Below are positions 2,093 through 32,701 of a DNA stretch of 32,701 bases, one piece after another. The DNA lies in IMG/VR virus record IMGVR_UViG_3300030109_004766, positions 1 through 32,701 of that record; one strand, written 5' to 3'. The translations under genes were made by a program, and so were the position numbers. Position 1 is the first letter of the stretch. Every line of letters begins with the position of its first letter. A model generated the notes under the pieces. The model saw only the letters and a list, made by a program, of their open reading frames with translations. It was not told the origin of the DNA and did not search any database. The stretch is from a virus.

Positions 2093-2095
2093 CTA

Positions 2096-2685: not shown

Positions 2686-2694
2686 GATAAACTC

Positions 2695-3075: not shown

Positions 3076-3085
3076 TTTCTATCCT

Positions 3086-4240
3086 CTAAACTGGTAAGTA
3101 TACATTTGCGCGAAGTGCTAGGTTTTCTCTTTCGCCATTGAAACTGAAGTTATCCACAATCTGAGTCCAATTGGCACCGTTATCTGTGCTTTCAGCAATG
3201 TCGCCGCCAAACGAACCAATAAGCCAAGTTCCATTTCCATCAGTCGCAATAGTTTCAATATCACCCTCAACTATTTCGCCTTCACCAACAGTCTTTCTAC
3301 CTGGCGATCTTATAGAAATTGAAGTGCCGTTGACATCGAACGACATTGTATATTCCGAGTGTGCCGCAATAACTACACCGTCACCACACGCTATAACGGT
3401 TCTTTGCGCCCCAGAATCTGCAGTTGTGATGCTGTCGCCACCAGAGGTCAATTCTTGTGTGCCCCACGTAGCATTTGAGCCGCCACCCATTTCTGTAGCA
3501 AATGCAGACGCGCCAACAGTATTTAGCTGTCCTGGCGTTCCGGCATCAAGAACAACCCAAGTGTTGTTTGTAAAACCAATATCGCAGACGTTTGCGCCTG
3601 GATAAGAAGTCATTTCAGCCCAGGTGCTTCCATTGTCTGTGCTGGCAAAGATATTTGAGCCCTGGCCGAACATCCAGCTTCCTGCGCCATCGCTTGCTAA
3701 ACCAAAGACAGTAACAGCGTTTTGAATACCAGACACTCCAGACAAGTCAACTTCAGACCAAGATGAACCATCTGTGCTGCGGTATAACTCTCTATTCGAG
3801 GCATCCATGTGGCCCATGGCAATCCAAACATTGTTACCCCATTCGATAGTCCTACATTTTTTGGACACGTTTACTTTGGTCCAAGTGCTCGAATCGGTAA
3901 TGTCATTGTTTCCGTCGTGAGCAATTTCCATACTGCCAGAGTTGTTAACCGTAGCCCATAAAGGATTTCCGCTGCCGTCCTTTCCATACGCGATGTCGTA
4001 AACATCGGGAGTTGAGGATTGAGCCGTTGTACCTGTCCATGATGTACGATCACTGTGAGCGCAGTAAGAAATATACCAATTGGACCCGTTCCCATCGTGA
4101 CCCATTACCCAACGGGTTGCAACTTGACCGGATGAAGGCGTATCAACACCATTGATGTTCTGAATACTGCTTTTCGCAATATCATTCACCTTTTCAATGT
4201 CAGCAGCAGCAACATCGTTGACTTTTTCAAAGTCACCCAT
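3086..4240 (-). CDS. Asp-box (BNR-like) beta-propeller fibre/receptor-binding protein
   Basis: The 384-aa product opens with an 11-residue repeat (FEKVNDVAAADI, EKVNDIAKSSI, QNINGVDTP), a linker type I remember from aquatic phage fibres. The rest contains repeated blades with S-T-D-x-G-x-x-W Asp-box motifs (STDGSSWSEV, STDNGSTWAEM, STDNGANWTQI) and matching strands such as GNNVWIAMG, GAGSWMFGQG, NNTWVVLDAG and GNGTWLIGSFGG. This is the signature of a sialidase/BNR-type propeller, without visible catalytic Arg/Tyr set, so binding rather than cleavage is more likely. The start at 4240 is preferred because it overlaps the fibre stop as ATGA and has GAGGT 6 bases upstream; an in-frame TTG one codon earlier is less likely. 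Probably part of the host-recognition apparatus together with the 855-aa fibre. Confidence 0.82.
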   Translation of the reverse strand: MGDFEKVNDVAAADIEKVNDIAKSSIQNINGVDTPSSGQVATRWVMGHDGNGSNWYISYCAHSDRTSWTGTTAQSSTPDVYDIAYGKDGSGNPLWATVNNSGSMEIAHDGNNDITDSSTWTKVNVSKKCRTIEWGNNVWIAMGHMDASNRELYRSTDGSSWSEVDLSGVSGIQNAVTVFGLASDGAGSWMFGQGSNIFASTDNGSTWAEMTSYPGANVCDIGFTNNTWVVLDAGTPGQLNTVGASAFATEMGGGSNATWGTQELTSGGDSITTADSGAQRTVIACGDGVVIAAHSEYTMSFDVNGTSISIRSPGRKTVGEGEIVEGDIETIATDGNGTWLIGSFGGDIAESTDNGANWTQIVDNFSFNGERENLALRANVYLPV

Positions 4241-6807: not shown

Positions 6808-7238
6808 TACGCTCTCCAGTTGAGCCGAATGTTTTCAGCCACACATGCTGCGTTAGCTTTTGCCACAACATAAATAGTGCCGCTCGCAGCATTAGAAGCT
6901 GTTGTGTCGTAATGATAATCTTTACCAACCGTAAAAGAAACGCCACCAGTGCTTGCTGCGTTACTGACTTTTGTCACAGCTTGAGTGGCACCACCCAATT
7001 GATCCGACGTCAGTGGAACATGACCGTTAGAATCACGAGAAAGATACATCGTAATTGTATCCCCTGTAGCAATCGCGCTAAGCTCAAATTCGATAGACTC
7101 AAGAAAACAATCGTCAGGCACGACACCAGACTTATTATTCGCAGCTAAATTTGTGATCGCAGTGACTGAATAAGTTGTACCGATAGCAACATCTACAGCC
7201 GAGCATGAGTAACCGTACTTCGTGAATTGTTGAATCAT
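6807..7238 (-). CDS. Hypothetical beta-rich virion protein
   Basis: The 143-aa product begins MIQQFTKYGYSCSAVDVA and is rich in Ala, Thr, Ser and Val with scattered Cys (about residues 12, 44, 131), without signal or membrane segments. A central LESIEFELSAIATGDTITMYLSRDSNG stretch (quoted in pieces: IEFELSAIATGD, ITMYLSRDSNG) reads as beta strands around a turn, and the C-terminus ends IRLNWRA. AGGAG lies 8 bases before the ATG. Its stop overlaps the start of the fibre gene (TAATG), so it is coupled to the fibre. It could be a small fibre-attachment or decoration protein. No family is recognised. Confidence 0.72.
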   Translation of the reverse strand: MIQQFTKYGYSCSAVDVAIGTTYSVTAITNLAANNKSGVVPDDCFLESIEFELSAIATGDTITMYLSRDSNGHVPLTSDQLGGATQAVTKVSNAASTGGVSFTVGKDYHYDTTASNAASGTIYVVAKANAACVAENIRLNWRA

Positions 7239-7267
7239 CTCTGAGACTCCTGACGCAAATCTGCGAC

Positions 7268-7280
7268 TAGTGTAACACTA
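7268..7280. repeat. Perfect short inverted repeat in the spacer upstream of the fibre block
   Basis: TAGTGTAACACTA is a perfect inverted repeat with 6-base arms and one central base. It lies between the end of the giant gene and the start of the 143-aa gene. As DNA it could be an operator-like half-site pair; as RNA its loop is too small for a stable hairpin. No function can be claimed. Confidence 0.4.
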
Positions 7281-7284
7281 AAAC

Positions 7285-7303
7285 CTCAATACGCGGTACT
7301 GAG
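7285..7303 (-). terminator. Stem-loop after the giant virion gene, weak terminator or processing site
   Basis: Read on the minus strand, CTCAGTACCGCGTATTGAG folds into 8 base pairs (one G-U) with a CGC loop, 15 bases after the stop of the 2774-aa gene. It is followed by only GTTTTAG, so the U-run is weak and termination would be partial at best. It sits exactly where the internal-virion block ends and the fibre block begins, so it may tune relative expression by partial termination or by stabilising mRNA ends. Confidence 0.4.
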
Positions 7304-7317
7304 ATACAAATTGATAT

Positions 7318-10300
7318 CTACTTTAACCTCTGCCCTGGCTTAGCTTTTTTCTGAACCAAACGACTACTGTCTTCTTCAGCTTGATATTTTGCGGCTGACG
7401 CGGTTCTTTCACGAGTAATGTCACGCATATCAAGACCCAACGCTGTACGTATCGCAACTTGAAGATTGCCCCGCATACCCGCAGCTTTTTCAGGCGACGT
7501 CTTCTCCATCTTCAACAAGATGTCATTTACCTCACCAAAAGGACTGTTATTAAATGCCAACTGCATGACACCGGGCATCAGGTAATAGACTTTATCTTGT
7601 TTAGTTTCTACCCCAGGCCGCTTAAGGGGCAAAGGATCTACATCTTTCCCCGCATCAATGTCTTTTTTACGCTCAATCAACAAAGAATATGGGTCATCTC
7701 TTTCGTCTAATTCAAGTACATCTAATCCTGAGTAATCAGCAAAAAAAGCAAAAGCAGGATGCACCTTTCTCGGTATTTGAGATCCACCAATACCTAAAGA
7801 CGCCATTGCATCAGACACACCAATTGTTCTTTCTGTGTTCAACAAAGCATTTAGTGGTGTGATCGGACTAATTGCATCCGATCCATCATCTTCATCCGTA
7901 AACCAGGCATCACCCAACTCTTCAACCTCACCTATTGCCAGCAGCATCGTAGAAGCCAAATACGTAAAGTGATTCATTGCAGCATTGTAGGTTGGGTCAG
8001 GTAAAAACAGCCCCATGTACGGCGCATCTGGACGATTTTGTCGATACAAATCCGTCCAAGTTTTCATCGTTTGTTTAAACTCACCAGGAATTTCGGGGTC
8101 AATTGACACGTCAACTGCACGCTCTGGTAGGTACGGAAGCCTCAGAGAAATTCTATCGTGTAAGTAATTAGGCATTGAGGAACGATCTGTTCTCGGTACA
8201 TAAAATGCTGCCAGAGAACGACGATCCACCAACAAAGGTTTACCCTCTTCGTCTTTCAAGCCACGAGCAATATCGACAAATTCTTCTGTAAGCTCTGTTG
8301 TTTGTCGCAATTGACCCAAAGATGCGCGAACAACTGAACCCGAAACAAACAAACGTAATTCTTCTCGAACGATTGGTGGGATACGACCATCAACTTCGTA
8401 CCGACCATAGATTTCTTTCTTCAAAGCAAAGTAGCTTTGCCTCAAATCATCTGGCAGTCCATCCACATAGATTCCGTTTTCATCAACAGATGCCGCGTAA
8501 ACAAGCTCACTGAGAGCATCGCTACCCTTATCATAGGCTCGACGCATAACACCCAGCCTGTACGCGCCTTCGGGGCTGAATAAGACGTCAAACATCTGGC
8601 GGTTTGCGTTCTTTTGGAAAGCCCAGAAAGGGAAGAATAGGTTGACCAGGAAGTTTCGATCGCCCTTAGACATGCTGCCTGCGTAGTCATAGAGCGCTTC
8701 AACTGCGATACGTGCCGCAGTTTTGGGGTCCATGCCGCCTTCAATCAAAGTGATTGCAAGACCTGCGCGCTCTCGCTCAGCCCAAGCTTCTGCAATATCT
8801 TCTGATGCGCCTTTGAGATCACCAAGAATATCTTTGCCCGCTTGAGACAAATTCCCTTTTTTCTGCTGCTCCATCAAAAACAAGTTTCCGACATTCTCAA
8901 TCTTCGTACCCAATTGACTGGTGTCGAATGAGGCGAAGACACCTGCTTCCAGAAATATCTGACGCAGATCGCTCATCACATAGGGCTTACCACCCAAGAG
9001 AATAATCTCATCACCGCCACGAATTACGTCATTAACATTGATGTGCCACTTAGAACCACGGCTAAATTTCTTCGCCCACTGTGCCGCCTTATCACCACCG
9101 GACTGCAGCACGCGTCGAAATGCCTCAACTTCTTCACCCTTACCGGCTCGACGTGCAGCGAATACAGCAGCTTGACCTATCGGATTCGACAACACATTCT
9201 GAGTAAACATTCGAGTGGTTGAGACAAATGCTGTTCCGTATCCCGCACGAAGGGCTGTTTGGTTGAAGTGATCGAATGTATTCATCCAAAAGTATCGAGA
9301 CTTCAAGACAAAGTGACCACGAACCATACGTGTTTTGAGGTACCGATAGATCAACGCCATATTCAACTTGGTCGTTGTGTTCGTACCTTTTGAGATCACG
9401 TCCTCACCAGCCGCCATCACAGTATGCATCGCATCAAATAGGTCGCCGTTAAGTGACTTTATGATGGTTGGATCATTCGCCTGAGACATAGCCATCGCAA
9501 GACGGTTGCGTGCCGCGTTTGGAAGATACATTGTGACGCCGTCCAAACTGAACACGTCAACCATACGGGGGTTGTACCCCATAAGATCTACGAAACGTTT
9601 GACCTGGACCAATTGCTCATCAGATACTTTCTCACCGACCAGGTACATATTGACGGCGCTTGCAAGTTCTTCATCGGCAGCAATACCAAGCTTAACCCAG
9701 TTAAGACGGGCCTTATGAGCCACACCATGACCTGCTACCAGAATAGCTACACGGTTCGCAACTTTGTTATCTTCAGGGAATAGCGTCGAAATCTCATCAT
9801 ACAAACGAATAAATGTGTTTTGAGGTACGTCAACAATACCGGCATCAGACATCATCGTGGAGTACAGTTTGCTTTTGTTATCCGCAGGATCGACACGCTC
9901 GACTAAGTTTGCGTAATACATAAACGCTTCGAGCAACCCACCGGCTTCAGTAGCACCTTTTGGTTGTGTCAAAAACTGAGGGTAAAACTCAGATGACTTG
10001 TACCCCGCTGCCTCAAACGCTTCTTTGATAAACCGGTTTGATTTATCACCCTTCACCACAGCATTAAACGCTTCGATGATCTGCTTTTGGGTGATATCCT
10101 CGCCCCCGACTTTCATCTGGGTGATTGTTTTCAAAGCTTCTGAGGCTGAGTTATTTTGCCTTACAAGAGCCGCGTACGTTTGAAGAATCTCTATTTGAAT
10201 CTTCCCTGCTTCCTCGGTCGCCATTGCTTTGAAGTACTTCTCCATACTCTTCACAACAGAAGTCACTGAGTCATGACCAGCACTCATCGCTGACCGACCA

Positions 10301-13300
10301 CCCTTGGCAAACTGAACAGTCTTGGTACCCGTCAGGTACCGCATCAAATTATTGATGTCACCTTCGACAACAAGCGTAATCGCGTCACCAATAGCTTGCT
10401 GAACCAGCCGCTCACCCGCTTTGACCGATTCTCGAATCGCAGGAGGTAGATGGCGCATGTCAGCGTACGCATCACCACCGAGGAATATGTTGCGAAATAC
10501 CCGACCCAATGGTCTATTAAGCATCGCCTGGTCAGTTAACTCTGCGGCTGAACGCTCTTCGATTGCTTTCTCAGCACCACCAATAGGCAAAGGCACAGTT
10601 TTCTTCGGCTGTATCTCAAACAACCGAGCATCCTCAAGCTGCCTCTGAGCCTTCGCCAAATCAGTCAAAGTAAACTGATCTTTTGGTTTACCTAAAGCAC
10701 CGCCGAGTTTAATCGCGACGGGAAATTTCAGTACTGCGGCATCGGGCTTATTTGGATCGTATCTTTTTAGCGCATCAGCCCATTGCTTCTCAAGATCTGC
10801 TTTTGATACCGGATTGCCCAAGCGATACAACTCTCGGTAGATCTCGTCCAAGACATCAAACTTCGTACCCTCTTTCTTCGCAGTAGACAGCATCGCATCT
10901 TTCGTAAGCTTAAAGATATTCGGAAGCGCAACCCGTTCAGAGCGCGTCCGCAAAAGCTTGTCCAATGATCGTGTGAGTCCGGGGTCTGTTCCTGGCAGTG
11001 GTCCGCCAGCACTACGACTTGTGATTGAGGTATATGTATCTTTAAGCCACTCATTTGCCTTACTCAAAGCCCCTTGAATTTCTGGTTGATCAGCCTGACC
11101 TGACTTCACGTAATGTAGGAACGCCCTCGCAAATTCTTGTTCAGCGGCTTCTACGACAGAAGCATCGTCTGCTGTGAGCACTGAACCACGATGACCAACC
11201 TTAATGCCCTTGGTTCCCAGCCAGGTAACCAAAGCCTTCATATCCGAGTCATCAAAGTTTCGACGAGTCACCCGACCGATTGCCAGCATGAAATCATCTG
11301 CCGTTGCGGTCTCCGTCAAAGCACGGATAACGGCACGGCCATCCTCCATGAAGTCTACAACCACAGGGTTAGCTACAAAGTCATCACCACGGGCAGCAAA
11401 GCGACTAACAGAACCCTCGTTGACGAGAGCATAAAGGTAATCAAGCGAAAATCTCTTTCCGTGTTCAATTGCAATTTTATCCAAGTCTAATTTAGCCAAG
11501 TTACGCGAGCTAATAAAATAGACATCGGTCAATTCGCCTTGTGCATCAGGTAAAGGTTTACGCTGAAACTTGACCCCTAAATTCTGTAACTTGTTGTAGA
11601 CACGAACAGCATCTTCCGTAGGCGTTAAATCACTAACAAAGCCCACACCCTCATTCTGCGCGTGCTTGAGTGCCCTAAGATATAAATCTGTTCCAAGCCC
11701 CTTACGCCGCAGAGATGCTGGAACCTCAACAGAGTCTACCTGAAAGACTCTTGAACCAAAAACTTTGTTCTCGCGGAAAAGTATTTCACCCAAAGGTTCA
11801 TCATATTTTTTTAACTTAGGTCGTTCATCAGACTTTTTAATTTGTCGCCTGTAAATTGTAACTAAAACCGGTGATGTAACTTTTGTGCCGCCTTCGGATA
11901 CAGTCACGATAGGTTCAGCATCAGAAACAACGCGGGGATCAAACTTAGATGCCGCCGTTAACAGCCGATCGTTTGCCACCAATACTTGAGCCAAAGCACC
12001 GGTCTCGTCCTCTGCCGTAATACCAAACAACTTAGCGATTAAACGCGTAAACTTGTTCCACAAAGTAGTTTTTGGTCCAATCTCTAAAGTTTGGAGCATC
12101 CGTTGAAAACTCGAACTACTTAAACTCCAAGCAAGAAACTCTTTCGTCGAACCGAAATAGTCCCAGCCCATTAACATGGCGTCGATTTTTACTGCGACAT
12201 CTTCAGTCAAATCTTGTGTGTTTCGGTAATTACGTAAAGCAGTAAGCGTCTCGTCGGATAGATCCTCTAAGTTTTTAATCGTAGCGTTATTAGGAGATGC
12301 ATCAATAAAAATTGATGTTGCAGCATGAATAAACTCATGCAGGATTGTCTCTTCATCCAAGCCCGTTCGCAAGGCACCAGCAATACCCCGAATTCGTACC
12401 TCGTTTAAAATACTCGAATACTGACCATAGCTGTTATTCATTCCAGTCGTATCAATTTCACGACCGTCAACAATCTTAAACGAAGGAGCGTTTCTTCTGA
12501 TTGTCGGTAAGATGCGTCGTGCAATTGCTCTGGTAGCAGGCAACGCTGCATGGTTCGCCAAAAACTCAACAACCTTTGCGCCTTCACCTGGTCCCTCAAA
12601 TTGACGTAGATGGTTGTAAAGATCTTCAGCGGACAAACTGCCCACAGGTTCGCTACGTTGAAACCAACCAACAAACAAACCACGAGGTGTAGACGGTTCA
12701 ATATCTGGCAATGGTTTCTGTTTTGGTGCCGTAGCTACAGGACCCTCAAACGCCCCACGAGCAGCCTTACCCGCTACCTTAGGCTTAAAGACAGACTCAT
12801 CAAGCCCCGTCAAAGCTTCTCGAAGACCTGTAGGTAGCTTTTCCTCCATTGGACCCGCAGGCGGATACTCGTCAAGTGCCTTCGCTGTAGGCGGTGTCTC
12901 TACATCTTTCGGTGTAGGCGCCTCAGGTGTCGGAGCCTTAGGCGGTGCATCAGGAGCAAGACCACGGGGCCGAGGTCTCGGTGATGGCGCACCAACAATT
13001 GCCTCAAAAGTCTCGTCGTAGAAAGCCTGTACAGTACGCTCGTTCTGCTTCGCCCACTTCTTTGCTTGGTTGTCTACATTCTTCGTAATTCTAAGCGCTT
13101 CATCGGCTGAAATATTCGGTGCAGCTTCTTGAAGCTGATCTAAAAAAGCCAATCCATCAGGAGACAAACCTGAGCGACCAACAGCTTTGTGCTTCTCTGT
13201 GATTGAAACAATCAATGGATCAACGGACAGACCTGCTTTTTCCGCTATTTTCTCACGCGTAAACGCCATGGCCGCTGCACGAGACTCAAACTGACCGCGA

Positions 13301-15642
13301 ATAGCTTTGACGCCTTTTGCCGTAGCACTTGCCGCAATCTCAGGTGTAACCTTGGTTTTCAATGCTGCACGAGTCTTCTTCATCGAAGTCACCGTGGTAG
13401 ACATTTCTTTGTTTAGCTTAGAAAGAAAGATATTCGTATCGGTCAACTTCTCAGGATCAAACGGAAGTTTCTGCGCCAACTCCGTTACCCGAAGTTTCCA
13501 AGCATTCGGATCATCACGAAGTAGTTTAATCGACTCAGCAGACTCCAAGTAACGAACAAGGTCGATTGATAGTTGACGCTGATCTGTAGTCAAATCTGGA
13601 TTAGCTGTACCGACATTGATCTCACGCATGAAGTCTCGTACTTTCGATAGAAAGCTAGACGCTTCTTGTCGATTAGCACTCAAAAGCTGTTCGTTAATGT
13701 TGCCCTCTTTCAACACACGAACAGAGTCTTTTAGATGCTCGATCGACTCACTCATACTGAGTAATTCACCGAAACCGACGGTCTGCTCATCCATGTCACC
13801 ACGAAGAAGTTTACGTCGTAAACCCTGATGGATATTCTGCTCAATGAAACCAAATGAACCAGGTATGATTGAGGCCAATCGGTTGCCTTCACCACCAGCC
13901 ATTTCAGGTGTTTCTTTACTCAGCTTACGGGCAATTTCCGTATCTAACTCATCAACAACGGTTGCTGCGTTTCTATCTAATCCGCGTGCCTCGGATATCG
14001 ATGCATCAGACTTCTTTGCAAACTCCTGTGCTTCATCAAGCAAACGCAGAGCCTCATCGTAGTTACCTGCAAGAATAGCATCAGCCACACCATCACTCAG
14101 AATCTCTTCGGCTTTGGCCAAAGACTCTGCACCATCACCCAAGCTGCCCGTTAAACCTGGGGCAAGCTTTCTAAGTCGAGCCACGTCTGCGGCAGATGTG
14201 CCCAACTTCTTTGTTATGCGTGCGGCAGCAGCGGCACCAATAAATGCATCGGGGAAAACAATAGCACCACCCAAGCCAAGCATACCCAAAGCAACTGCAG
14301 TAAGGCCGTCAGACTCAGCCGCCTCAGTGGATAGCGCAGCTTTTATGAGATCCCTACGGTCTTTAATACCTTCAAGTGATCCTTCTGAGATAGCGTCGAG
14401 AAACGATTCACCCTCAGGCCCTTTGGCGAGTCTCTCTACCGCACCTGTGAAGGCAGCTTGAGGTGCATCCATCAACTCAAAGAGGTGCCATGTAGGTGAG
14501 TCAAGACGGTAAACCGGTGCTTTGTTTTTCGCGTCTAAGCCAATAACTTCTACACGAACCTCACTCGCATTGTTCCACGCTTTCGAAAACCAACTCTTGT
14601 CGTCTTCGTTTTCTGTGTTTGGAATCTTCTTGAGTGGGTCAATCAAGTCGTATGAAATGAAAGCCGGAAGATAAAACTTGTTCAGTGTACGGAGAAGTGT
14701 TGCATCATACAAAGCGTTCTTCATTGCTTTGTCTTTCAAATCTTCGTACGAAACACCGTCCTCTCGGATCTGACCTCGACCGATACCCTCTTTCTTGGAC
14801 ATCTTGTTGAGGTCATACGTAGCGATGTTCCCGATAATGTCTCGAAACTTACTGTCCGCCAGGACGTCGCGAATCATTTTACCGGAAGATGGAGTACCCA
14901 AACTCTGTAGCTGTTGTTGCCAAAGCTTGGCTCGTTCAGGGTCTTCCGCCACTTTGTCATTGATGATCAACTCACCCATCTTATCAAGTTGATCCCACCC
15001 AGGTTGACCGACACGGATAATCGCATCCTCGGCCTCACCTTCCGTGTTGCCGTCGAAGATTATCGGTGGTTGTTCTCGAGGATCAAAGCGTGAGAGTATT
15101 CGCCGTTGTGCCGCCTCACGCTCTTTCTTTGGTAGCTTTTTCTTACCTGTTTGAAGGCGCTTAAGTCCTGACAAAGCAATGTCTGTTCCCCGTTGCTTTA
15201 CCTCACGCTTCTCTTTGGTCTCGCCAGCCTGCTCTCTCTGAAGTTTGAAAGACTTAACTACATCACTGACCGGCTCACCCTTTTCCGCCACCCGCGTAAA
15301 CAGGTCGTCGAGTGGAATATTCTGATACGTTGCTGCTTCTTTGTATTCTGTCGGCGTCAGCCCCGTAAAATCTGTGACTTCGCTCAGAGCATCTTCGTAG
15401 TTAAACGTTGGCGCTTCTTCTGCTTTACGCTTCTCAACAGCTTTAGGGTCGTATGAACGCTCTGTTTCTGCGTACTCAGCAATGATCAGACCCAGCCGCT
15501 CGATCTTCAAGTCTTTCGTCAGCTTACCTAATTTTTCCTTATCAAACTGTGTAACCTCAGGCTGTTTAACTTCAGGTTGCTCAGCATCGACGGCAAGGGT
15601 TTCTTCCTCAACAATTTTGGTACCTTGCTCTTCCTTAGCCAC
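7318..15642 (-). CDS. Giant internal virion/polyvalent protein with zincin and GNAT-like domains
   Basis: The 2774-aa product starts at a GTG with GGGG 6 bases upstream. N-terminal ~430 residues are charged and helical, followed by a hydrophobic stretch (about 443-475, LGMLGLGGAIVF and later residues) and long coiled-coil-like helices. A Pro-rich linker lies at about 885-935. Next comes ILHEFIHAAT with H1102, E1103 and H1106, and KEFLAW with E1168 as likely third ligand: a zincin metallopeptidase. At about 1235-1375 a GNAT-type acetyltransferase segment contains VPASLRRKGLGTDLY (R1312-T1318 is the acetyl-CoA loop). Another helical module around 1490-1570 (EQEFARAFLHY, NEWLKDTYTSI) resembles modules of large polyvalent proteins. 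Near 2320-2345 FFPFWAFQKNANRQ matches a motif I remember from large ejected phage proteins. Its place after other ejection-type genes suggests packaging and injection with the DNA. The domains are seen; the injected-effector role is inferred. Confidence 0.85.
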   Translation of the reverse strand: MAKEEQGTKIVEEETLAVDAEQPEVKQPEVTQFDKEKLGKLTKDLKIERLGLIIAEYAETERSYDPKAVEKRKAEEAPTFNYEDALSEVTDFTGLTPTEYKEAATYQNIPLDDLFTRVAEKGEPVSDVVKSFKLQREQAGETKEKREVKQRGTDIALSGLKRLQTGKKKLPKKEREAAQRRILSRFDPREQPPIIFDGNTEGEAEDAIIRVGQPGWDQLDKMGELIINDKVAEDPERAKLWQQQLQSLGTPSSGKMIRDVLADSKFRDIIGNIATYDLNKMSKKEGIGRGQIREDGVSYEDLKDKAMKNALYDATLLRTLNKFYLPAFISYDLIDPLKKIPNTENEDDKSWFSKAWNNASEVRVEVIGLDAKNKAPVYRLDSPTWHLFELMDAPQAAFTGAVERLAKGPEGESFLDAISEGSLEGIKDRRDLIKAALSTEAAESDGLTAVALGMLGLGGAIVFPDAFIGAAAAARITKKLGTSAADVARLRKLAPGLTGSLGDGAESLAKAEEILSDGVADAILAGNYDEALRLLDEAQEFAKKSDASISEARGLDRNAATVVDELDTEIARKLSKETPEMAGGEGNRLASIIPGSFGFIEQNIHQGLRRKLLRGDMDEQTVGFGELLSMSESIEHLKDSVRVLKEGNINEQLLSANRQEASSFLSKVRDFMREINVGTANPDLTTDQRQLSIDLVRYLESAESIKLLRDDPNAWKLRVTELAQKLPFDPEKLTDTNIFLSKLNKEMSTTVTSMKKTRAALKTKVTPEIAASATAKGVKAIRGQFESRAAAMAFTREKIAEKAGLSVDPLIVSITEKHKAVGRSGLSPDGLAFLDQLQEAAPNISADEALRITKNVDNQAKKWAKQNERTVQAFYDETFEAIVGAPSPRPRPRGLAPDAPPKAPTPEAPTPKDVETPPTAKALDEYPPAGPMEEKLPTGLREALTGLDESVFKPKVAGKAARGAFEGPVATAPKQKPLPDIEPSTPRGLFVGWFQRSEPVGSLSAEDLYNHLRQFEGPGEGAKVVEFLANHAALPATRAIARRILPTIRRNAPSFKIVDGREIDTTGMNNSYGQYSSILNEVRIRGIAGALRTGLDEETILHEFIHAATSIFIDASPNNATIKNLEDLSDETLTALRNYRNTQDLTEDVAVKIDAMLMGWDYFGSTKEFLAWSLSSSSFQRMLQTLEIGPKTTLWNKFTRLIAKLFGITAEDETGALAQVLVANDRLLTAASKFDPRVVSDAEPIVTVSEGGTKVTSPVLVTIYRRQIKKSDERPKLKKYDEPLGEILFRENKVFGSRVFQVDSVEVPASLRRKGLGTDLYLRALKHAQNEGVGFVSDLTPTEDAVRVYNKLQNLGVKFQRKPLPDAQGELTDVYFISSRNLAKLDLDKIAIEHGKRFSLDYLYALVNEGSVSRFAARGDDFVANPVVVDFMEDGRAVIRALTETATADDFMLAIGRVTRRNFDDSDMKALVTWLGTKGIKVGHRGSVLTADDASVVEAAEQEFARAFLHYVKSGQADQPEIQGALSKANEWLKDTYTSITSRSAGGPLPGTDPGLTRSLDKLLRTRSERVALPNIFKLTKDAMLSTAKKEGTKFDVLDEIYRELYRLGNPVSKADLEKQWADALKRYDPNKPDAAVLKFPVAIKLGGALGKPKDQFTLTDLAKAQRQLEDARLFEIQPKKTVPLPIGGAEKAIEERSAAELTDQAMLNRPLGRVFRNIFLGGDAYADMRHLPPAIRESVKAGERLVQQAIGDAITLVVEGDINNLMRYLTGTKTVQFAKGGRSAMSAGHDSVTSVVKSMEKYFKAMATEEAGKIQIEILQTYAALVRQNNSASEALKTITQMKVGGEDITQKQIIEAFNAVVKGDKSNRFIKEAFEAAGYKSSEFYPQFLTQPKGATEAGGLLEAFMYYANLVERVDPADNKSKLYSTMMSDAGIVDVPQNTFIRLYDEISTLFPEDNKVANRVAILVAGHGVAHKARLNWVKLGIAADEELASAVNMYLVGEKVSDEQLVQVKRFVDLMGYNPRMVDVFSLDGVTMYLPNAARNRLAMAMSQANDPTIIKSLNGDLFDAMHTVMAAGEDVISKGTNTTTKLNMALIYRYLKTRMVRGHFVLKSRYFWMNTFDHFNQTALRAGYGTAFVSTTRMFTQNVLSNPIGQAAVFAARRAGKGEEVEAFRRVLQSGGDKAAQWAKKFSRGSKWHINVNDVIRGGDEIILLGGKPYVMSDLRQIFLEAGVFASFDTSQLGTKIENVGNLFLMEQQKKGNLSQAGKDILGDLKGASEDIAEAWAERERAGLAITLIEGGMDPKTAARIAVEALYDYAGSMSKGDRNFLVNLFFPFWAFQKNANRQMFDVLFSPEGAYRLGVMRRAYDKGSDALSELVYAASVDENGIYVDGLPDDLRQSYFALKKEIYGRYEVDGRIPPIVREELRLFVSGSVVRASLGQLRQTTELTEEFVDIARGLKDEEGKPLLVDRRSLAAFYVPRTDRSSMPNYLHDRISLRLPYLPERAVDVSIDPEIPGEFKQTMKTWTDLYRQNRPDAPYMGLFLPDPTYNAAMNHFTYLASTMLLAIGEVEELGDAWFTDEDDGSDAISPITPLNALLNTERTIGVSDAMASLGIGGSQIPRKVHPAFAFFADYSGLDVLELDERDDPYSLLIERKKDIDAGKDVDPLPLKRPGVETKQDKVYYLMPGVMQLAFNNSPFGEVNDILLKMEKTSPEKAAGMRGNLQVAIRTALGLDMRDITRERTASAAKYQAEEDSSRLVQKKAKPGQRLK

Positions 15643-15654
15643 GACAATCCCCGA

Positions 15655-16890
15655 TTAAAACTGAGACGCAAAATCACCCAAAAGATGTTTCTCTGGCTCT
15701 GATTCTTCTTCTGCCTCTCGTCGAGGTATTGTAACGTCTTTTATGCGAAGCAATTGATTCAACTCAGCTTGCATTTGCTCTTTCTCATCTTTCAACGCCT
15801 CGATCTCAGCGTAAATATCACCAGGTCGACTCGTGTCACCGATACTATCTTGAAGCTCTGTTAGTCTCGAATTTGCACCACGGATATTTCTTTTACGCGA
15901 CAAAATTTCTACGCTCAATTTCTCGCCGGTTTTATCCGCGTCAAACTGTTGACCCATTGGTGCTCGCGGAGCAAACATCACACCACTCGAAAACGGAGCC
16001 CTTAGTGACTCAGGAGAAATACTGTCTGCCGTCGGTTTGTCGCCGCTGCCCAATGTTTGGTCATAAACTGATTGACCTGCAGCAATACCCAACCTCGCAG
16101 GAGATTTTATTAGTGCCTCTCCCAAAGGGTTGTTTAAAGCAACGCCACCAGTCCGAGGATCGAACAACTGTTTCATCGCTTGTCTCTTACGAGAACGAGC
16201 GTACACTCGAGGTTCTTCTCCTTCGATGGGTAACTCAACTTCACGCATCTCTGGACCGGAACTAAAGTACTCATAAATACCGGGTTGAGTTTGCTCAATC
16301 GTTCTCGCCCCAGTCTCGGCTTCAATCAACTTTTCTTGTGACCGCTCTCTCGATCTACCTGGGTACACAGGGCCGCGTTTCTCGTCAAACTCAACGCCAG
16401 GAGGGGGAGCCGAAGGTGCTTTAGCGGGCTCAGCCACACCAGAAAGAGACTCTATTTGCTCTAAAACCTGACGCAACTCACCTCTTTTCGCTGAAAGTAA
16501 TTGCGTGGCTTCGTCTTTTTCCAACTGAGCCATTTCACGTTCTTCAATCGTCGCACGAAGTTTGACCGGAGCCTGACCACGAACCGAAGACTGAAGGTTT
16601 TTAATTTCTAATTCAAGGGCATCGGCACGCTTGTTCAACTCGTCCAGATCACCCTCGACAGCCACAGGCTCTGGCTCTGGCTCAGGTGTGGGCTCAACTG
16701 GTGGCGGCTCAACTGGATCGGGTTCAGACGGAATTGCGGGCGGTGCAACAGGTGGTGGAGCAGCAGCCGCAGGTGGTGGAGCAGCAGCCGCAGGTGGTGT
16801 AACGGCAGTCGCCGCAACGTCTTGTGCTCCAGGAGTTGCCGCCGCTTGTACTACTTTCCGTGTTGCTTGTCCGAAGTCAAGAACGCCCAT
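15655..16890 (-). CDS. Proline/alanine-rich and coiled-coil virion-associated protein
   Basis: The 411-aa product has a short N-terminal segment (MGVLDFGQATRKVV), then a low-complexity Pro/Ala/Glu region (about residues 28-78) partly encoded by a 21-base tandem repeat, then a coiled coil (about residues 80-145, LDELNKRADALELEI and following). The rest is charged, Arg/Glu-rich and contains a second coiled coil near residues 330-385 (SRLTELQDSIGD, EALKDEKEQMQAELNQLL). Such build suggests a flexible scaffold or internal-virion partner. AGAGGT precedes the ATG by 5 bases. It lies between the 119-aa gene and the giant gene, 12 bases from the latter, so it likely acts with it. No family is recognised. 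Confidence 0.75.
   Translation of the reverse strand: MGVLDFGQATRKVVQAAATPGAQDVAATAVTPPAAAAPPPAAAAPPPVAPPAIPSEPDPVEPPPVEPTPEPEPEPVAVEGDLDELNKRADALELEIKNLQSSVRGQAPVKLRATIEEREMAQLEKDEATQLLSAKRGELRQVLEQIESLSGVAEPAKAPSAPPPGVEFDEKRGPVYPGRSRERSQEKLIEAETGARTIEQTQPGIYEYFSSGPEMREVELPIEGEEPRVYARSRKRQAMKQLFDPRTGGVALNNPLGEALIKSPARLGIAAGQSVYDQTLGSGDKPTADSISPESLRAPFSSGVMFAPRAPMGQQFDADKTGEKLSVEILSRKRNIRGANSRLTELQDSIGDTSRPGDIYAEIEALKDEKEQMQAELNQLLRIKDVTIPRREAEEESEPEKHLLGDFASQF
16750..16799. repeat. 21-base tandem repeat within the Pro/Ala-rich coding region
   Basis: Two identical 21-base units (16750-16770 and 16771-16791, AGGTGGTGGAGCAGCAGCCGC on the plus strand, one base over the quoting limit if joined, so read as AGGTGGTGGAGC then AGCAGCCGC) are followed by a partial third copy. 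They encode PPPAAAA repeats in the 411-aa protein. The unit length is a multiple of three, so copy-number change by slippage would keep the frame and change linker length. Confidence 0.8.
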
Positions 16891-16899
16891 TAAACACCT

Positions 16900-17259
16900 C
16901 TACTTCGCACTTCTACGCATCGTTAGTGTATCGATGATTCTATCAAAAGCCGCATCAACACCATCACTTGCGGGCTTGTAACGCTGACCATTTGTCGAGT
17001 CTTTCTTACCCATACCACCAAGGACACCCGCAACCGCTTGGGCCTTCGGCTGGTTCTTCTTAAACTTCGCGTAACGATCGATCTTTTTATCGGCTTTCGA
17101 ACTAGTCTTCTTTGGTGTACCGGGTACGTCCTTCATCAGATCAAACTCATCTTCCTTAGGTTTTTTGATCGACAACTCAGGCTTTGGTGCCTGATAAAAC
17201 CCCTCTGATTTTGGTTTGACTTTAAACTCAGGTGTATCAAGTCCCTCAAACTTACTCAT
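16900..17259 (-). CDS. Small Lys/Pro-rich protein of the internal-virion block
   Basis: The 119-aa product starts MSKFEGLDTPEFKVKP. The ATG at 17259 is chosen because AAGGA lies about 8 bases upstream and it overlaps the end of the 940-aa gene by only a few bases; a longer frame back to 17358 would overlap that gene by about 100 bases and adds a basic segment with no support. The protein is rich in Lys, Pro, Asp and Ser with repeats of K-P/K-S, likely disordered, with a helical C-terminus (AAFDRIIDTLTMRRSAK). It may be a small packaged or scaffold-like protein. No family is recognised. Confidence 0.7.
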   Translation of the reverse strand: MSKFEGLDTPEFKVKPKSEGFYQAPKPELSIKKPKEDEFDLMKDVPGTPKKTSSKADKKIDRYAKFKKNQPKAQAVAGVLGGMGKKDSTNGQRYKPASDGVDAAFDRIIDTLTMRRSAK

Positions 17260-20074
17260 TGTTTTGTCCTTGCTTATCGTCTTTGTCGGGCGGGAAACCT
17301 GCATGGAGTGTTTCCGCAGAAATCTGCGTTTTAAGATTAGGTTGTCCGCCCTGCCCAAGTACGGTCATATCTGACTTTTTTGCGTCGTCATTAGCGTCTT
17401 GATTTTTTCGTGCTTTCTTCGATTGGCGGTCTTCTTTCTTCTTTTTCCGACGCTCCATCATCTTAGCAAATAGACTACCAGGACCAAACAATTGACCTAT
17501 TCCCATGTCACCTGTGGGTTCCGGTAACTCACCCGAAGTCTTTTCTTCTTCGGGTACTTCAGTCGCTGGAGCAAATACTTCAGGGTTAATATTTAAGAAC
17601 ATGCGACCAGCAATATCCTCTTGCGTTTTAAGAGACTTAGGCGTTTTCTTACCCGTCATCTTCCGACGCTCACCAAAGCGTTTACGCGTACCTTTTTTCG
17701 CCTCCTTAACGTCTTCTTTAGAAGGCTCACCACCACCAACGATAAACTCGTCCGCCTGACTGTCTGTTTCCTCGCGAGCGCTTTCTTCTGAGTCTACTCT
17801 AGGCAATGCGCCAGGTGCGTCAGGATCGCGCGGGGGAGTGCCTGGGATCTTACCCGGATGATCTTCGTCAAGATTTATTGCCGCAGCAAAAGCCTCATTT
17901 TTCGCTTTCTCCACAGGATCAGGTGACTTTTCAAGATCTTCAGGTAGTTCAGAATCAGTTGGTATCAAATCTTCGGGATCAATACCTTTTGAACCGTACT
18001 CATCAATGAACGCGCTACCTTGAAGACTACGTGGCCCAAACAAACCCTCATCGGGTACAGCCTTATAACCAAAAACACCCGGATTGATGTGCGCGGCTGT
18101 TGCCGCGTCTAAAGCAGCAATTTCTTCTTGTGAGTCGGTGGGCATTTTCGCATGAAACTTTATGTTACCTGACGTAAGTGCTGACTGAAAATCGTCGCCA
18201 GAAAACATCTTCAGACCACCAGCTTCATCCTCAACAAACATATAATTACGATTTCCGGGTTCTTCTGCAGCTAAACTTAAGACACCGCTAGCTTGCTCAT
18301 CATCAAGCTGAATTAAGTTACCCTCTCCATCGATTTCATAAACATCGCCCTCAGGCGACACAACATGATGCAGTTGCACACCTAATTGAGGATTAGCTGC
18401 CAGTAACTCCGGTGAAATAGCGTCACCTTCAACATAGGCTGCTGTTCGTGTTCCATCAGTACTAATGTAGTGATAAGCCGTCTCACGTAAGCGATTATCT
18501 TGTGCTTCTTTCAAAGCATCTTCAGCAACGAGGTTACCCTCGGCATCCTCCAAAACATCGTCACCCACCCGAGCAAGGGGAGTCTGATCCGCCATTAAAA
18601 CTGCGTCAGTTTCTAATCGACTATAATTGCCTATCTCACGCTCATAGATACGCTTCGCACGACGGTCGATTCGAGTGACATCAGGTGCAGGCTTCTCAAG
18701 ATAGATCGCCCGCTTAACCTCACCAGGGTAAACCTGCCGCGCACCCTCAGGAGTTACGATACGAATGACGCCCTTGGGATCAGCCGCATGACGACGAAGG
18801 CGCTTACCAGTAATCGCTGTGCCGTCCGTAAACTCGATACGCAAAACCTCGCCAGTATCGATACCCCTCAACCCATAGTTACCCGCCGCACGCTTCGATT
18901 GGCGCTCCCAAGCAAGCAGAGCCGCAATATCGTCACCGCCAGCAACGTAGGTTGAGTAATCAGGAGTGCCATCCTCATTCATTGAAACTCTACCGAGGCG
19001 ATCCCAACCGTAGTCAGCAGCCCAAGCGCGGAAAACCGGATCGGCAATACCCTTTGCGATACCCGACCTTACACTATCGCTGGTCTCACCACCCATGATC
19101 TGAGCGCGAAGTTTCTCTACATATTCTTCTGCAAACTTATGTGATTGCTGGCGCATACGTGCATCTTCTACACGGGCCTTCAGGTCATCTGGGTTACCAA
19201 GTTGCTGCTCCAACTGAAACTGAAGCTGACTTGTGATTGCAGCTTCATCAAGTGTTTCCAGTAATCTTCTTGCCCCCTCTTCATCTCCATCGGCAGCCAT
19301 TGCTTGGGCTCGACCGAGGTTTGCTTCTACCGCAAGAGCCTCACGTCTGCGCTGATCGTCATACGCTATACGTCGGGTAAGATTCTGGTTGTATTGATCA
19401 ACAAACTCAAAGATTCGATTAAACTCAGGGCTACCAATGTTTCGACCCTTGTCACTATTCTTGATTGCGGCTTTTGATGCCTCAACATCAACCCTACCGT
19501 CAGGCGTATAGATAAATAAATCGGCGTTATTTCTATCGTTCATGCCGTCTAAGATGGCACGAAAAGTCGGTATGTATTGAGGGCTGTCAAAAGCAATTGC
19601 AGGCTTTTTCATTCCCGTAATCTTATCCATCGGTCTCAAAGCATTGAACCCGGCTATAAGTGGGTCCTGGCCTACGGGATTCGAAAAACCATCCAATGCA
19701 GAGAAGATTAGTTTCGTATCGGTTGATCGAACCTTGGTGTTGTACCGCTGCTCAGCATCGATAAACGTCTTATAGATACCCGCACGAATCTCAAACTGCT
19801 TGTCTAAACTTTGTTGTTTCGCTTTTGTTAGCTCAGTGTGGGCGCGGGTATTGGCCTTGTAGTACTCCAACTGGTTCTTGGCAGCAGCCAAAGCACGCTT
19901 GTCACCTTCCGTAGCAATACCCTGCTCGATCTTCTGCAGTAGATCCAAGGCTTTCTGATAAGCGTCGTACAACTCTTTCGACGTAAGATCGTCGTCAGTA
20001 GATACCGTGCCACCACGTTTATTCTTGACGGCTTCGATAATCGCTTCAGTTGTCTGTGCTACTTGATCTGCCAT
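17252..20074 (-). CDS. Large internal virion/ejection-type protein
   Basis: The 940-aa product is helical in its first ~330 residues (long charged helices such as KELYDAYQKALDLLQKIEQG), has a beta-rich middle (about 390-690, e.g. VLRIEFTDGTAITGKRLRR and YEIDGEGNLIQL), and ends in an acidic/Pro-rich, then very Lys/Arg-rich disordered tail (about 700-940, ERRKKKKEDRQSKKARK). It is unrelated by eye to a portal or tape measure. AGAAGG lies 8 bases before the ATG. It follows the small Ala/Gly-rich membrane protein and precedes further large proteins, the order seen for internal core proteins in short-tailed phages. I see no lytic transglycosylase motif. Function inferred only from position and build. 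Confidence 0.75.
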   Translation of the reverse strand: MADQVAQTTEAIIEAVKNKRGGTVSTDDDLTSKELYDAYQKALDLLQKIEQGIATEGDKRALAAAKNQLEYYKANTRAHTELTKAKQQSLDKQFEIRAGIYKTFIDAEQRYNTKVRSTDTKLIFSALDGFSNPVGQDPLIAGFNALRPMDKITGMKKPAIAFDSPQYIPTFRAILDGMNDRNNADLFIYTPDGRVDVEASKAAIKNSDKGRNIGSPEFNRIFEFVDQYNQNLTRRIAYDDQRRREALAVEANLGRAQAMAADGDEEGARRLLETLDEAAITSQLQFQLEQQLGNPDDLKARVEDARMRQQSHKFAEEYVEKLRAQIMGGETSDSVRSGIAKGIADPVFRAWAADYGWDRLGRVSMNEDGTPDYSTYVAGGDDIAALLAWERQSKRAAGNYGLRGIDTGEVLRIEFTDGTAITGKRLRRHAADPKGVIRIVTPEGARQVYPGEVKRAIYLEKPAPDVTRIDRRAKRIYEREIGNYSRLETDAVLMADQTPLARVGDDVLEDAEGNLVAEDALKEAQDNRLRETAYHYISTDGTRTAAYVEGDAISPELLAANPQLGVQLHHVVSPEGDVYEIDGEGNLIQLDDEQASGVLSLAAEEPGNRNYMFVEDEAGGLKMFSGDDFQSALTSGNIKFHAKMPTDSQEEIAALDAATAAHINPGVFGYKAVPDEGLFGPRSLQGSAFIDEYGSKGIDPEDLIPTDSELPEDLEKSPDPVEKAKNEAFAAAINLDEDHPGKIPGTPPRDPDAPGALPRVDSEESAREETDSQADEFIVGGGEPSKEDVKEAKKGTRKRFGERRKMTGKKTPKSLKTQEDIAGRMFLNINPEVFAPATEVPEEEKTSGELPEPTGDMGIGQLFGPGSLFAKMMERRKKKKEDRQSKKARKNQDANDDAKKSDMTVLGQGGQPNLKTQISAETLHAGFPPDKDDKQGQNNE

Positions 20075-20086: not shown

Positions 20087-20863
20087 CTATTGAGACCCTA
20101 CGGCTGGGTTTTGGCCTGGTGGAGTGGTCGCTTGGGGTTGAGCCGCGAGGGCCTCACCAGCAGCCCCTGCCTGAGCCGGTCGATTAGGATTGAACGCGCC
20201 CGCTGCATAAAGTGCCGTACCCGCACCAATACCCGTACCGATACCACCCGCAATACCAGAACCGATTGCCGTATTAGCCGCTGCAATACCCTGCTCAGCA
20301 GCTTGTCTCTGTGCTGCCGCCGATTGAATAATCCCTCTATCAGCCGTCTGCTCAGCCGCACGAATCTGAGAATGCAGTGCCTGTTGCTGACTACGAGACT
20401 TAGCCGCTGCGTCAGCACTACCAGCACGCAAAGCGTCCGTCAGTTTACGTTTCCTACCAGCAGCAAAAGGATTTTGCGAGTCGCGAGCAATATTAGCCGC
20501 TGCAGTCTTTGTATCGGCTTCGTAAGTGCGCCGAGTTTCCCCGACACCCCGACGCATTTCTGCTTCGCTGAGACCGTAATCACCCTTCTTAAGTCTCTTA
20601 CGCGCTTCTTTCTGTTCCTGTCGAAGTGCTTTCGCTTCGGCACTTTTATCGTACCGCTTCATGGCTTTCTTTGCCTGAACGCCCTTAATGATTTGTGGGG
20701 CAGCACCCGCAGCTAGCGCACCAGCAATTAAAACGCCCGCTGTAACGGGTTCAATACTAAAAAGAATGTCGCCGGATTCGCCCCGAAAGACGAAACAAAC
20801 AACCAAAGAAACCAAATACAGAATAGCCTGGACCGGAGTAAATTTAGGGAACAACAAAGACAT
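20087..20863 (-). CDS. Small Ala/Gly-rich internal virion (ejection) protein with membrane segments
   Basis: The 258-aa product has hydrophobic segments at about residues 11-26 (VQAILYLVSLVVCFVF) and 39-60 (PVTAGVLIAGALAAGAAP), an amphipathic Arg/Lys/Glu-rich helical region (about 62-110) and a long Ala/Gln/Arg helix (about 115-200). A Gly-rich segment (GIAGGIGTGIGAGTAL, about 202-217) is followed by a Pro/Gln tail. This resembles the small core protein of short-tailed phages (T7 gp14 type), which inserts in the outer membrane during genome delivery; the match is by architecture rather than by recognised sequence. GGAGA lies 7 bases before the ATG. It heads the internal-virion block. Confidence 0.72.
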   Translation of the reverse strand: MSLLFPKFTPVQAILYLVSLVVCFVFRGESGDILFSIEPVTAGVLIAGALAAGAAPQIIKGVQAKKAMKRYDKSAEAKALRQEQKEARKRLKKGDYGLSEAEMRRGVGETRRTYEADTKTAAANIARDSQNPFAAGRKRKLTDALRAGSADAAAKSRSQQQALHSQIRAAEQTADRGIIQSAAAQRQAAEQGIAAANTAIGSGIAGGIGTGIGAGTALYAAGAFNPNRPAQAGAAGEALAAQPQATTPPGQNPAVGSQ

Positions 20864-20893
20864 TAATTTCTCCGTGTAAAGTATAGCGCGAAA

Positions 20894-30075: not shown

Positions 30076-30083
30076 ACCTCCTT
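30076..30083 (-). promoter_or_regulatory. Strong ribosome binding site that sets the decoration protein start
   Basis: The minus strand reads AAGGAGGT then ACATT and ATG. This is the closest match to the Shine-Dalgarno consensus in the window and its first bases overlap the TAA stop of the capsid gene. It decides the start at 30070 and implies a high translation rate. Confidence 0.85.
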
Positions 30084-31134
30084 AAATCGCGCCGCCGGAA
30101 ACACAACCCTGAGCCGGAAGCTTAGTGCAGATCATGTTGCCTTGCATTGCAAAGATAGCGGTTACCACGTCCTGATCTCCAACCCGTTCCTTGAATTCCG
30201 AGATGTTCGGGGCTTCAAGCATTGGGAATTCAATGTAGTCCGTGTTGAGCATGTAAGTGACACCGTCAGCAGCGACACCCGAGAAAGCAGAAGAATCTGT
30301 GCGATCCAAGTCGATAGACGAGGTAACAGCAGCAAGACCAAGGGAAAGACCCAGGGTGTTGCTCTTGTCAATCTTATCATCAACGAGAGTCACGCGGACG
30401 TTCTGGCTACGCTCATCTTCGAAGTTAGTGAAGGTATCATCGTCCATGATCACAAGATCAGGACCCTTACCAACACCACCTGCGTAGTGAGCACACTTAC
30501 GATACGTCTTCCGAAGTTGAGACATACCCTCACCAGACCAAGAACCAATGTCATTGTACTGGTTGAAGTGGAAGTAGCTTGTGCTTGTTGTCACGTTTTG
30601 TACAGCAACAGAACGAGAAGCACTGAAGCCGAGAAGACCATTGGTCACGCCGGTTCCAATACCTGATGTGTGCTGTCCGTTAAGAGACAAAAGCCCAAGA
30701 AGCTCTGACGTGTTGAAAGCAAGTCCGCGACTCACACCAGTGAGAAGAAACTTGTTCATGTCAGCCTTAGCAGCTTCCATTGCGGTCTGAGGATATTCTT
30801 CGATCAATCGAATAACAGCCAACTTGCCGCTGTTTTGGTTCAACTCTCGCTTAGGAATGTTGATGGCCATAACCATACGGTGTGGCTCAACCTCAAACTT
30901 ACGAATTTGTTGACGCCGGGTCATGTTCAGTAGCTCATCGCCCACATAAACACCAACACCACGAGCAGGGGCACCACCGGAGAAGGAACGTTCAATCTTC
31001 GTTCCGCCTTCCATGGGCATCCGAGCCTTGGAGTTAAGTGCTTCGAACAACTCATTGCTACGAACAAACGAATTTACAAGAGGTCCACGGAGGTCCGCGA
31101 ACGTAGTATTCAGTAGTTCTGTACTGATAGTCAT
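30082..31134 (-). CDS. Major capsid protein (HK97-fold family likely)
   Basis: The 350-aa product begins MTISTELLNTTFADLRGPLV. It has an ARMPMEGGTKIERSF strand near residue 37, a helical spine-like region (about 95-135, RLIEEYPQTAMEAAKADMNKF), a VIMDDDTFTNFEDERSQNV segment (about 230-248) and a TAIFAMQGNMICTKLPAQG ending. These features and the length fit major capsid proteins of HK97-like phages, where the C-terminal strand often ends with a G-N/Q-L/M-V/I-C/...-P/..-G run. It has only a weak ribosome site (GTGAGA) and opens the minus-strand operon. No protease or scaffold is visible nearby; a scaffold may lie elsewhere. I regard the call as good but not checked by search. Confidence 0.85.
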   Translation of the reverse strand: MTISTELLNTTFADLRGPLVNSFVRSNELFEALNSKARMPMEGGTKIERSFSGGAPARGVGVYVGDELLNMTRRQQIRKFEVEPHRMVMAINIPKRELNQNSGKLAVIRLIEEYPQTAMEAAKADMNKFLLTGVSRGLAFNTSELLGLLSLNGQHTSGIGTGVTNGLLGFSASRSVAVQNVTTSTSYFHFNQYNDIGSWSGEGMSQLRKTYRKCAHYAGGVGKGPDLVIMDDDTFTNFEDERSQNVRVTLVDDKIDKSNTLGLSLGLAAVTSSIDLDRTDSSAFSGVAADGVTYMLNTDYIEFPMLEAPNISEFKERVGDQDVVTAIFAMQGNMICTKLPAQGCVSGGAI

Positions 31135-31269: not shown

Positions 31270-31356
31270 GTATGATACTTTTGCAGTGTCAAGATTTTTT
31301 CGTCCTGTTCAGCACACGTAATGCTGCGTACCCAACATCATGATACCATTGTGGAT

Positions 31357-32701
31357 ATGACAACAAATACAGTAAGAAAACGTAAACGCAAAAATGTAGA
31401 GGTCGGCGGAGCAGAGTTTGCTACTGCACCAGGTATCCATGACGGCAAAGTAAAAGCTTTGTTTTCGACCCCAGATGCTTTTGTGTCCATGTGTCAGATC
31501 GTCAGAGAAGACGAGTCAACTGGATTCATGGAACCCACACATACGCAGAAGAAACTGCTGAAAGCATACGATGAGAACCGCTGGCTGATGGTAAACAAAT
31601 TCCGTCAGGCAAAGATCACAACTGTTTCGGTTATGTTGCTGCTGCGAGATTGTATGTATCTCAGCGGCGTCAAAGGACTGCTGATTGCAGAGCGTCAAGA
31701 CACCGCAGAAGACATCTTTGAGCGAATACTGTTTGCCTATAACAGACTACCAAAAGATGTACGTATGCCCCTCACGCCAGGAAAAAAGGCCGGGGCAACG
31801 CAAATGCAGTTTATTCATGGTGGTGGAATTAAGGTCCTGACGGCTGGTGGACGATCACCTGCTATCGGTCGATCCATTGATAGACTGGTCATCACAGAGT
31901 TTGGTGAAGCCCAATGGCAACGCAAAGCAGCCATCAACATCTTCCCCACAGTAAACAAACGGCCCAACGCGAAAGTTATTCTGGAGTCTACCCCCGGTAG
32001 AGCCGGATCTCACCATGAACAAATGTGGCGCTCTGCTCTCGAAGGCTCGAGTAGATTCCATCCATTGTTCCTCGAATGGTGGGAAGACGAAAGTTGCCAG
32101 GAAAAAGACGATAGCTTCAAACCGTCTACAACTGAAATCGAATACATGGAACGCCACGACGGGATGAACCTCCACAACTTAGCGTTTCGTCGTCGCGGAC
32201 TAAACACTGAGTTTGTTGGAGACTCACGACTATTCTCGTGTAAGTACCCCTCAGACGCTTACGATGGCTGGTTAGGCACAACGAATCCAGTCATGCCTGC
32301 TGAGATACTTAAACCTCTACTCGAAAAAGCAGACATCGAACCAACGCTTGGACCATTTGCGTGTCACGAATTCGAACCACCAAAACCAGGGCATCAATAC
32401 CTGGTCACGGCTGACCCCGCAGGCTTCGGTAGTACAGGTGATAAATCCGCACTAACTGTATGGGATGCCACAGATTGGAAAGAGATTGCTTTTTGGGAAG
32501 ACCGTGAATCACCTGACCGGTTCGCACAACGACTTCAGATCGTACAAAAACGATACCTGGGCGCACTACTGGCAGTTGAGTCAAACGCTACAGCATGTAT
32601 CGCGATCCTAAAAGATCAAGGAACAAGAAACCTACTCTGGACCGATAGCAATCACCCTGGTTGGTATGCAACACAAAAGAGACTACAAGAATCAGAGGCT
32701 C
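31357..32701 (+). CDS. terL: Terminase large subunit (C-terminus cut off by window edge)
   Basis: This DNA-packaging motor subunit is visible for 448 residues. The ATPase part has VNKFRQAKITT (residues 79-89) at the Walker A position, where the usual Gly is Lys, and a Walker B-like LVITEFGEA with E181 preceded by Thr rather than Asp, a variant seen in some terminases. A coupling-type LESTPGRAG motif follows. The nuclease part starts with TADPAGFGSTGDKSAL (D353, and D362), and AVESN with E408, matching RNase H-like terminase nucleases; the last acidic residue lies outside. The chosen ATG at 31357 gives MTTNTVRKRKRK; an in-frame ATG at 31321 and GTG at 31351 are alternatives, and none has a strong ribosome site. 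The gene points away from the capsid operon. Confidence 0.93.
   Translation, partial: MTTNTVRKRKRKNVEVGGAEFATAPGIHDGKVKALFSTPDAFVSMCQIVREDESTGFMEPTHTQKKLLKAYDENRWLMVNKFRQAKITTVSVMLLLRDCMYLSGVKGLLIAERQDTAEDIFERILFAYNRLPKDVRMPLTPGKKAGATQMQFIHGGGIKVLTAGGRSPAIGRSIDRLVITEFGEAQWQRKAAINIFPTVNKRPNAKVILESTPGRAGSHHEQMWRSALEGSSRFHPLFLEWWEDESCQEKDDSFKPSTTEIEYMERHDGMNLHNLAFRRRGLNTEFVGDSRLFSCKYPSDAYDGWLGTTNPVMPAEILKPLLEKADIEPTLGPFACHEFEPPKPGHQYLVTADPAGFGSTGDKSALTVWDATDWKEIAFWEDRESPDRFAQRLQIVQKRYLGALLAVESNATACIAILKDQGTRNLLWTDSNHPGWYATQKRLQESEA

Follow-up and report, generated by a model that had tools for sequence, protein, structure and literature searches.

The window analysed here comprises 32,701 nt (positions 1 to 32,701 of the IMG/VR virus record IMGVR_UViG_3300030109_004766) and derives from a phage lineage that is scarcely represented among isolates. 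The gene for the terminase large subunit (31321..32700, plus strand; phrog_2, E 2e-18) runs off the window, and that of the major capsid protein (30082..31134, minus strand; phrog_9953, E 2e-23) encodes a protein with 26% identity to the major capsid protein of Bradyrhizobium phage ppBjS10J-1. Four large late ORFs of 258, 370, 810 and 827 aa at 20087-26932 lack Pfam matches, and one of them shows a weak match to a structural-protein PHROG. In the upstream late region (15655..20074, minus strand), ORFs of 411, 152 and 940 aa are likewise without Pfam matches above cut-off. They lie on the same strand as the feature of interest, a giant ORF of 2,774 aa with a GTG start (7318..15642, minus strand), which is open throughout. 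A PHROGs search gave no match for this protein; since the major capsid protein gene is found at 30082..31134 (minus strand), we assigned the giant to the virion gene block and consider it a putative internal virion or ejection (polyvalent) protein.

Bases 1-19937 of the window are 99.2% identical to contig IMGVR_UViG_3300030110_004955, which continues beyond window base 1 into replication genes, namely a fusion of uracil-DNA-glycosylase and family A polymerase, a DUF927 protein and a SNF2-type helicase. The glycosylase-polymerase fusion (L035:5854-8634, in a contig overlapping the window) lies in the same phage and might suggest a uracil-related genome biology.

Relatives of the giant in IMG/VR share 33-51% identity over the full length. 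Conserved among them is a mostly helical C-terminal core (residues 1690-2440; 8323..10575, minus strand; 37-59% identity across relatives), modelled by AF2 as helical at a pLDDT of 64. It matches the BFVD entry A0A516MAA7 (37% identity), and fold searches yielded nothing beyond giant viral proteins without a name and weak matches labelled "large polyvalent"; GTDB contigs were searched for cellular homologues without result. Further upstream in the protein, conserved flanks enclose a variable bay (residues ~885-1430; 11353..12990, minus strand), which in a full-length alignment ranges from 143 to 661 aa across relatives and differs in content. In the window protein it holds a zincin-like metallopeptidase segment followed by a GNAT acetyltransferase domain.

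The identity of the second segment as a GNAT domain (residues 1268-1395; 11458..11841, minus strand), as put forward in the original prediction, is near certain, with Pfam, PDB profile, AF2 and Foldseek in agreement. Pfam PF00583 (Acetyltransf_1; cut-off 20.7 bits) matched the full protein with 23.7 bits (E 6e-5) and the region alone with 27.9 bits (E 3e-6); 12 of 17 relatives matched the same model independently, and the small Acetyltransf_CG model was matched by 11 of 17 members as well. A profile built from seven relatives' sequences retrieved 11 PDB sequences, of which nine carry the name acetyltransferase; 1yvk (E 1.5e-5), 2g3a (2e-5) and 8osp (6e-4) were among the matches, whereas reversed and shuffled giants reached E 0.04 at best. 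We take 1yvk ("hypothetical protein") and 1z4e ("transcriptional regulator") to be GNAT-fold entries as well. The AF2 model shows a β-β-α3-β5-α4-β6-β7 core with pLDDT values of 77-95, in which GNAT motif A is followed by motif B, the order claimed beforehand. Foldseek against the PDB, proposed as a check of the fold, ranked ICL2 chains first, whose C-terminal domain is presumably GNAT-like and binds acetyl-CoA, and then returned mainly GNATs (8gxk, 1yre, 5jq4, 2bsw, RimI, AtaT, TacT and KacT); GNATs thus dominate the matches, the best target having a TM of 0.54. The extent given earlier, 11500-11940, overlaps the confident core (residues ~1284-1385; 11488-11793, minus strand) but also takes in a low-confidence linker.

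The N-terminal helices of GNATs usually shape the acceptor site. Here, most residues of the β1-α1-α2 region (model residues 226-280) fall below a pLDDT of 50, and between the zincin part and β4 only one helix is predicted, at low confidence. Because the canonical α1/α2 helices are not resolved in the model, we describe the domain as a small, compact GNAT in which, as far as modelled, the usual α1/α2 helices are either absent or not confidently placed.

The predicted acetyl-CoA pyrophosphate loop, R1312-x-x-G1315-x-G1317, lies at the start of α3 (11692..11709, minus strand). The sequence claimed for it, R1312-RKGLG-T1318, is present in frame (11709..11689, minus strand) in the uninterrupted ORF. 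The motif alone was rejected as proof of a GNAT, as [RQ]xxGx[GA] occurs eight times in the giant versus 3.3 +/- 1.8 times in shuffles, which is near background. Conservation of the acetyl-CoA site was checked among homologues: the loop is kept in all 17 aligned relatives, with G1315 in 17/17, G or A at position 1317 in 17/17 and R, K or Q at position 1312 in 16/17; Y1321 and G1356 are invariant in the same 17 sequences. Neither outcome named beforehand as a refutation, a predicted structure without a GNAT fold or relatives that have lost the loop, was observed. D1338 at the end of β5 (11629..11631, minus strand; conserved in 16/17) is the candidate general base, and Y1349 in α4, within the A-x-x-x-Y-N-K-L helix (11596..11598, minus strand; 15/17), the candidate general acid. 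These roles are a reasonable inference by analogy, as their spacing resembles that of E103/Y115, which we take to be the catalytic pair of RimI. In the close pair L004/L006, dN/dS was 0.27 for the GNAT, 0.20 for the zincin and about 0.06 for both flanks, i.e. the GNAT is constrained by purifying selection yet evolves faster than the scaffold.

These data also bear on whether the GNAT fold might persist in an ejection protein solely for structure or CoA sensing, with catalysis lost. The acceptor-side N-terminal helices that are not recognisable in the AF2 model and the raised dN/dS relative to the flanks in that one pair would be in line with such a loss, as would the distant giants L032 and L033, which carry Val at the position of the motif-B tyrosine Y1349. 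However, a purely structural role would have no need for the CoA loop in every aligned sequence, nor for D1338 and Y1349 in nearly all of them, and we regard a loss of catalysis as unlikely.

The zincin-like segment of the window protein (residues 1022-1234; 11941..12579, minus strand) contains the motif HEFIH at 1102-1106, with E1168 as candidate third ligand; HExxH and a downstream E also occur in L002, L003, L004 and L006. A tblastn search linked this segment to internal core proteins of the phiKMV-like type, at 27% identity and a best E of 2e-10. Across the homologous giants, the GNAT is present in 16 of 17, the zincin only in seven. Both domains occur in the window protein and in L002, L003, L004, L006 and L021. 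The combination of Rho_N and GNAT was seen in L007, L018, L022 and probably L019 (four members were counted by Pfam, L019 not being listed individually). A GNAT with neither zincin nor Rho_N is found in L015, L016, L017, L031 and L044, and L020 has a zincin and ART-PolyVal without a GNAT. L005 gives no zincin call, its sequence being cut just before the GNAT, and the more distant L032 and L033, with weaker GNAT matches, stand outside the 16/17 count. Although some relatives were recovered with GNAT-containing queries, a query with the core only yielded eight new contigs (L015-L022), seven of which have the GNAT. Sampling is narrow, as many contigs carry neighbouring IMG sample numbers. Judged from this distribution, the GNAT, rather than the zincin-GNAT pair, is the constant element of the bay.

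In L007, L018 and L022, the Rho_N domain (SAP-like, nucleic-acid-binding) directly precedes the GNAT at about residues 1115-1175 and takes the zincin's place. In the core tree, L031 pairs with L003 (100/100) and is nested in the zincin clade, so that L031 has lost the zincin and kept the GNAT. Over most of their length, the giant genes of L018 and L019 share 93-99% DNA identity, but only 52-67% in the bay and 84% in the GNAT core; the Rho_N-GNAT bay (residues 1142-1580 of L018 versus 1141-1442 of L019) is their sole sharply divergent stretch. From sequence comparison, this looks like the pattern expected of cassette exchange. At the N-terminus, seven relatives (L007, L015-L019 and L022) carry a phage lysozyme (Phage_lysozyme2). 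According to Pfam and a profile built from these relatives, an N-terminal lysozyme or lytic transglycosylase is absent from the window protein and its clade, and the profile found no lysozyme elsewhere in the window or in the overlapping contig. The relative in L020 (L020:2-11860) comprises at least 3,953 aa, its 5' end being open, and has two HExxH motifs in addition to ART-PolyVal.

The conserved core showed no detectable relationship to T7 gp16 or another known ejection protein, and homology to a known ejection-type protein is limited to the zincin segment (Ab05 gp42). We infer virion location and ejection of the giant from its gene position, from the lysozyme and Rho_N of some relatives and the ART-PolyVal of L020, and from the homology between its zincin and internal core proteins. 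After ejection, T7 gp16, which serves as the reference for such proteins, extends from the periplasm across the inner membrane into the cytoplasm (PMC8954989); a domain in the bay could therefore reach host acetyl-CoA. We consider it probable that the giant is an ejection or polyvalent protein and that, through its exchangeable bay, it supplies the infected cell with a protein acetyltransferase of RimI-like type. According to our proposal, the giant would be packaged in the particle and leave through the portal together with the DNA or before it. Once in the host cytoplasm, the GNAT would use D1338 as base and Y1349 as acid to acetylate an amino group of a protein at an early stage of infection; in giants that have a neighbouring zincin, this protease would most likely process the giant chain or release the GNAT. 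Delivery of the GNAT along with the genome, as envisaged in the original prediction, is plausible; it may act on host machinery within minutes, as also suggested there, and early acetylation of a host protein appears to be its most likely role. More tentatively, the conserved GNAT cargo may covalently modify the host early, its target being e.g. the ribosome, RNA polymerase or a defence protein, with zincin, Rho_N and lysozyme as interchangeable companions.

Alternatively, the GNAT could work in the producing cell on phage proteins, in assembly or in protecting the giant or its zincin, and not in the new host. The late position of the gene would agree with this, as would solo GNAT genes among the head or virion genes of ppBjS10J-1 and Arthrobacter phage Inked and, in vB_PaeM-G11, between gp12- and gp14-like genes (PMC10142737). 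Fusion to an ejection-type protein with exchangeable neighbours, however, better fits an exported payload, and action in the producing cell seems distinctly improbable to us. A fixed two-step effector, in which the protease exposes a site that the GNAT then modifies, is very hard to reconcile with the data and was rejected from domain distribution and tree: although both domains occur together in the six giants named above and, in reversed order, in KpV48 gp48, the GNAT stands without zincin in the Rho_N-containing giants and in L015-L017, L031 and L044, the zincin without GNAT in L020 and Ab05, and L031 kept only the GNAT within the fully supported zincin clade.

With these results, the acetyltransferase, as persistent payload, replaces its pairing with the protease at the centre of interest, and a bay for domain exchange comes to light in a probable phage ejection protein. 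The notion that the pair forms a new infection system is not supported: the pairing is not fixed, and giants that have no zincin still retain the GNAT. Nor is there support for the fusion being unusual, as had been thought: Iyer et al. (2017) found zincins to be more common than any other domain of polyvalent proteins, reported RimI-like GNATs in those of phages, and proposed packaging and delivery (PMC5512222), so that the pairing in the window giant is an instance of an already described theme. In the literature searched, we found no case of acetylation by an ejected phage GNAT; as far as this literature shows, the window giant, if the more tentative reading given above is true, would represent the first demonstrated virion-delivered acetyltransferase.

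The window giant resembles the polyvalent proteins (PMC5512222) in being giant and multidomain, in its location among virion genes and in containing a zincin and a GNAT, the GNATs of the polyvalent proteins having been assigned to RimI-like clades. Several unrelated enzymatic domains share one polypeptide, i.e. zincin and GNAT in the window protein and lysozyme, Rho_N and ART-PolyVal in relatives, the last being a polyvalent-protein domain of L020. However, the previously described GNATs typically adjoin an ART domain (PMC5512222), whereas those of the window giant and its relatives adjoin a zincin or Rho_N. Pfam LPD and MPTase-PolyVal models gave no match in the window protein, and L020 showed only a sub-threshold LPD1 match. 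With RimI-type N-acetyltransferases (structural matches 2cnm and 5isv), the domain has the motif A loop and the motif B tyrosine in common, but it sits inside a giant protein and is without a clear α1/α2 acceptor region. Comparable to the putative internal virion giant are T7 gp16 and N4 vRNAP, two large proteins inside the particles of short-tailed phages that pass into the host; the ejected N4 vRNAP carries an HExxH (PMC12633501), as does the window giant, and no GNAT is reported in the literature examined on either protein. Homology to T7 gp13 was not detected.

With the whole giant as query, only the zincins of internal core proteins of the phiKMV-like type were matched among GenBank phages, judged from the best 40 of 97 records. 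One such protein, Ab05 gp42, is homologous to window residues 1022-1234 and, unlike the window giant, has no GNAT. The capsid relative ppBjS10J-1 encodes its solo 94-aa "GNAT" in the virion gene block (L034:24763-25047); it apparently lacks the CoA loop, and no homology to it was detected. The tblastn search of GenBank phages with the window GNAT gave no relatives, and KpV48 surfaced only when a relative's GNAT served as query. KpV48 gp48, a Drulisvirus T7-gp16-like protein annotated as "internal virion protein with endolysin domain", combines a GNAT (PF00583 at 307-380, 30.4 bits) and an HExxH zincin (HELIH at 561) in one protein like the window giant, to which it shows 35% identity over 53 aa in the GNAT and 39% over ~55 aa in the zincin. 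It is half as long, has the two domains in reverse order, and its remainder shows no detectable homology to the window giant. This reversed order and the zincin-only Ab05 gp42 make a separate origin of the two pairings probable. In myPSH1235, SFN6B and ZH5, the GNAT of KpV48 recurs at 87-93% identity; these phages were compared for this domain, and the zincin was checked in KpV48. Since cultivated phages of Klebsiella, Shigella and Escherichia thus bear a GNAT in their T7-gp16-like internal protein, virion-delivered acetylation, a sequence-based prediction since 2017, is directly testable.
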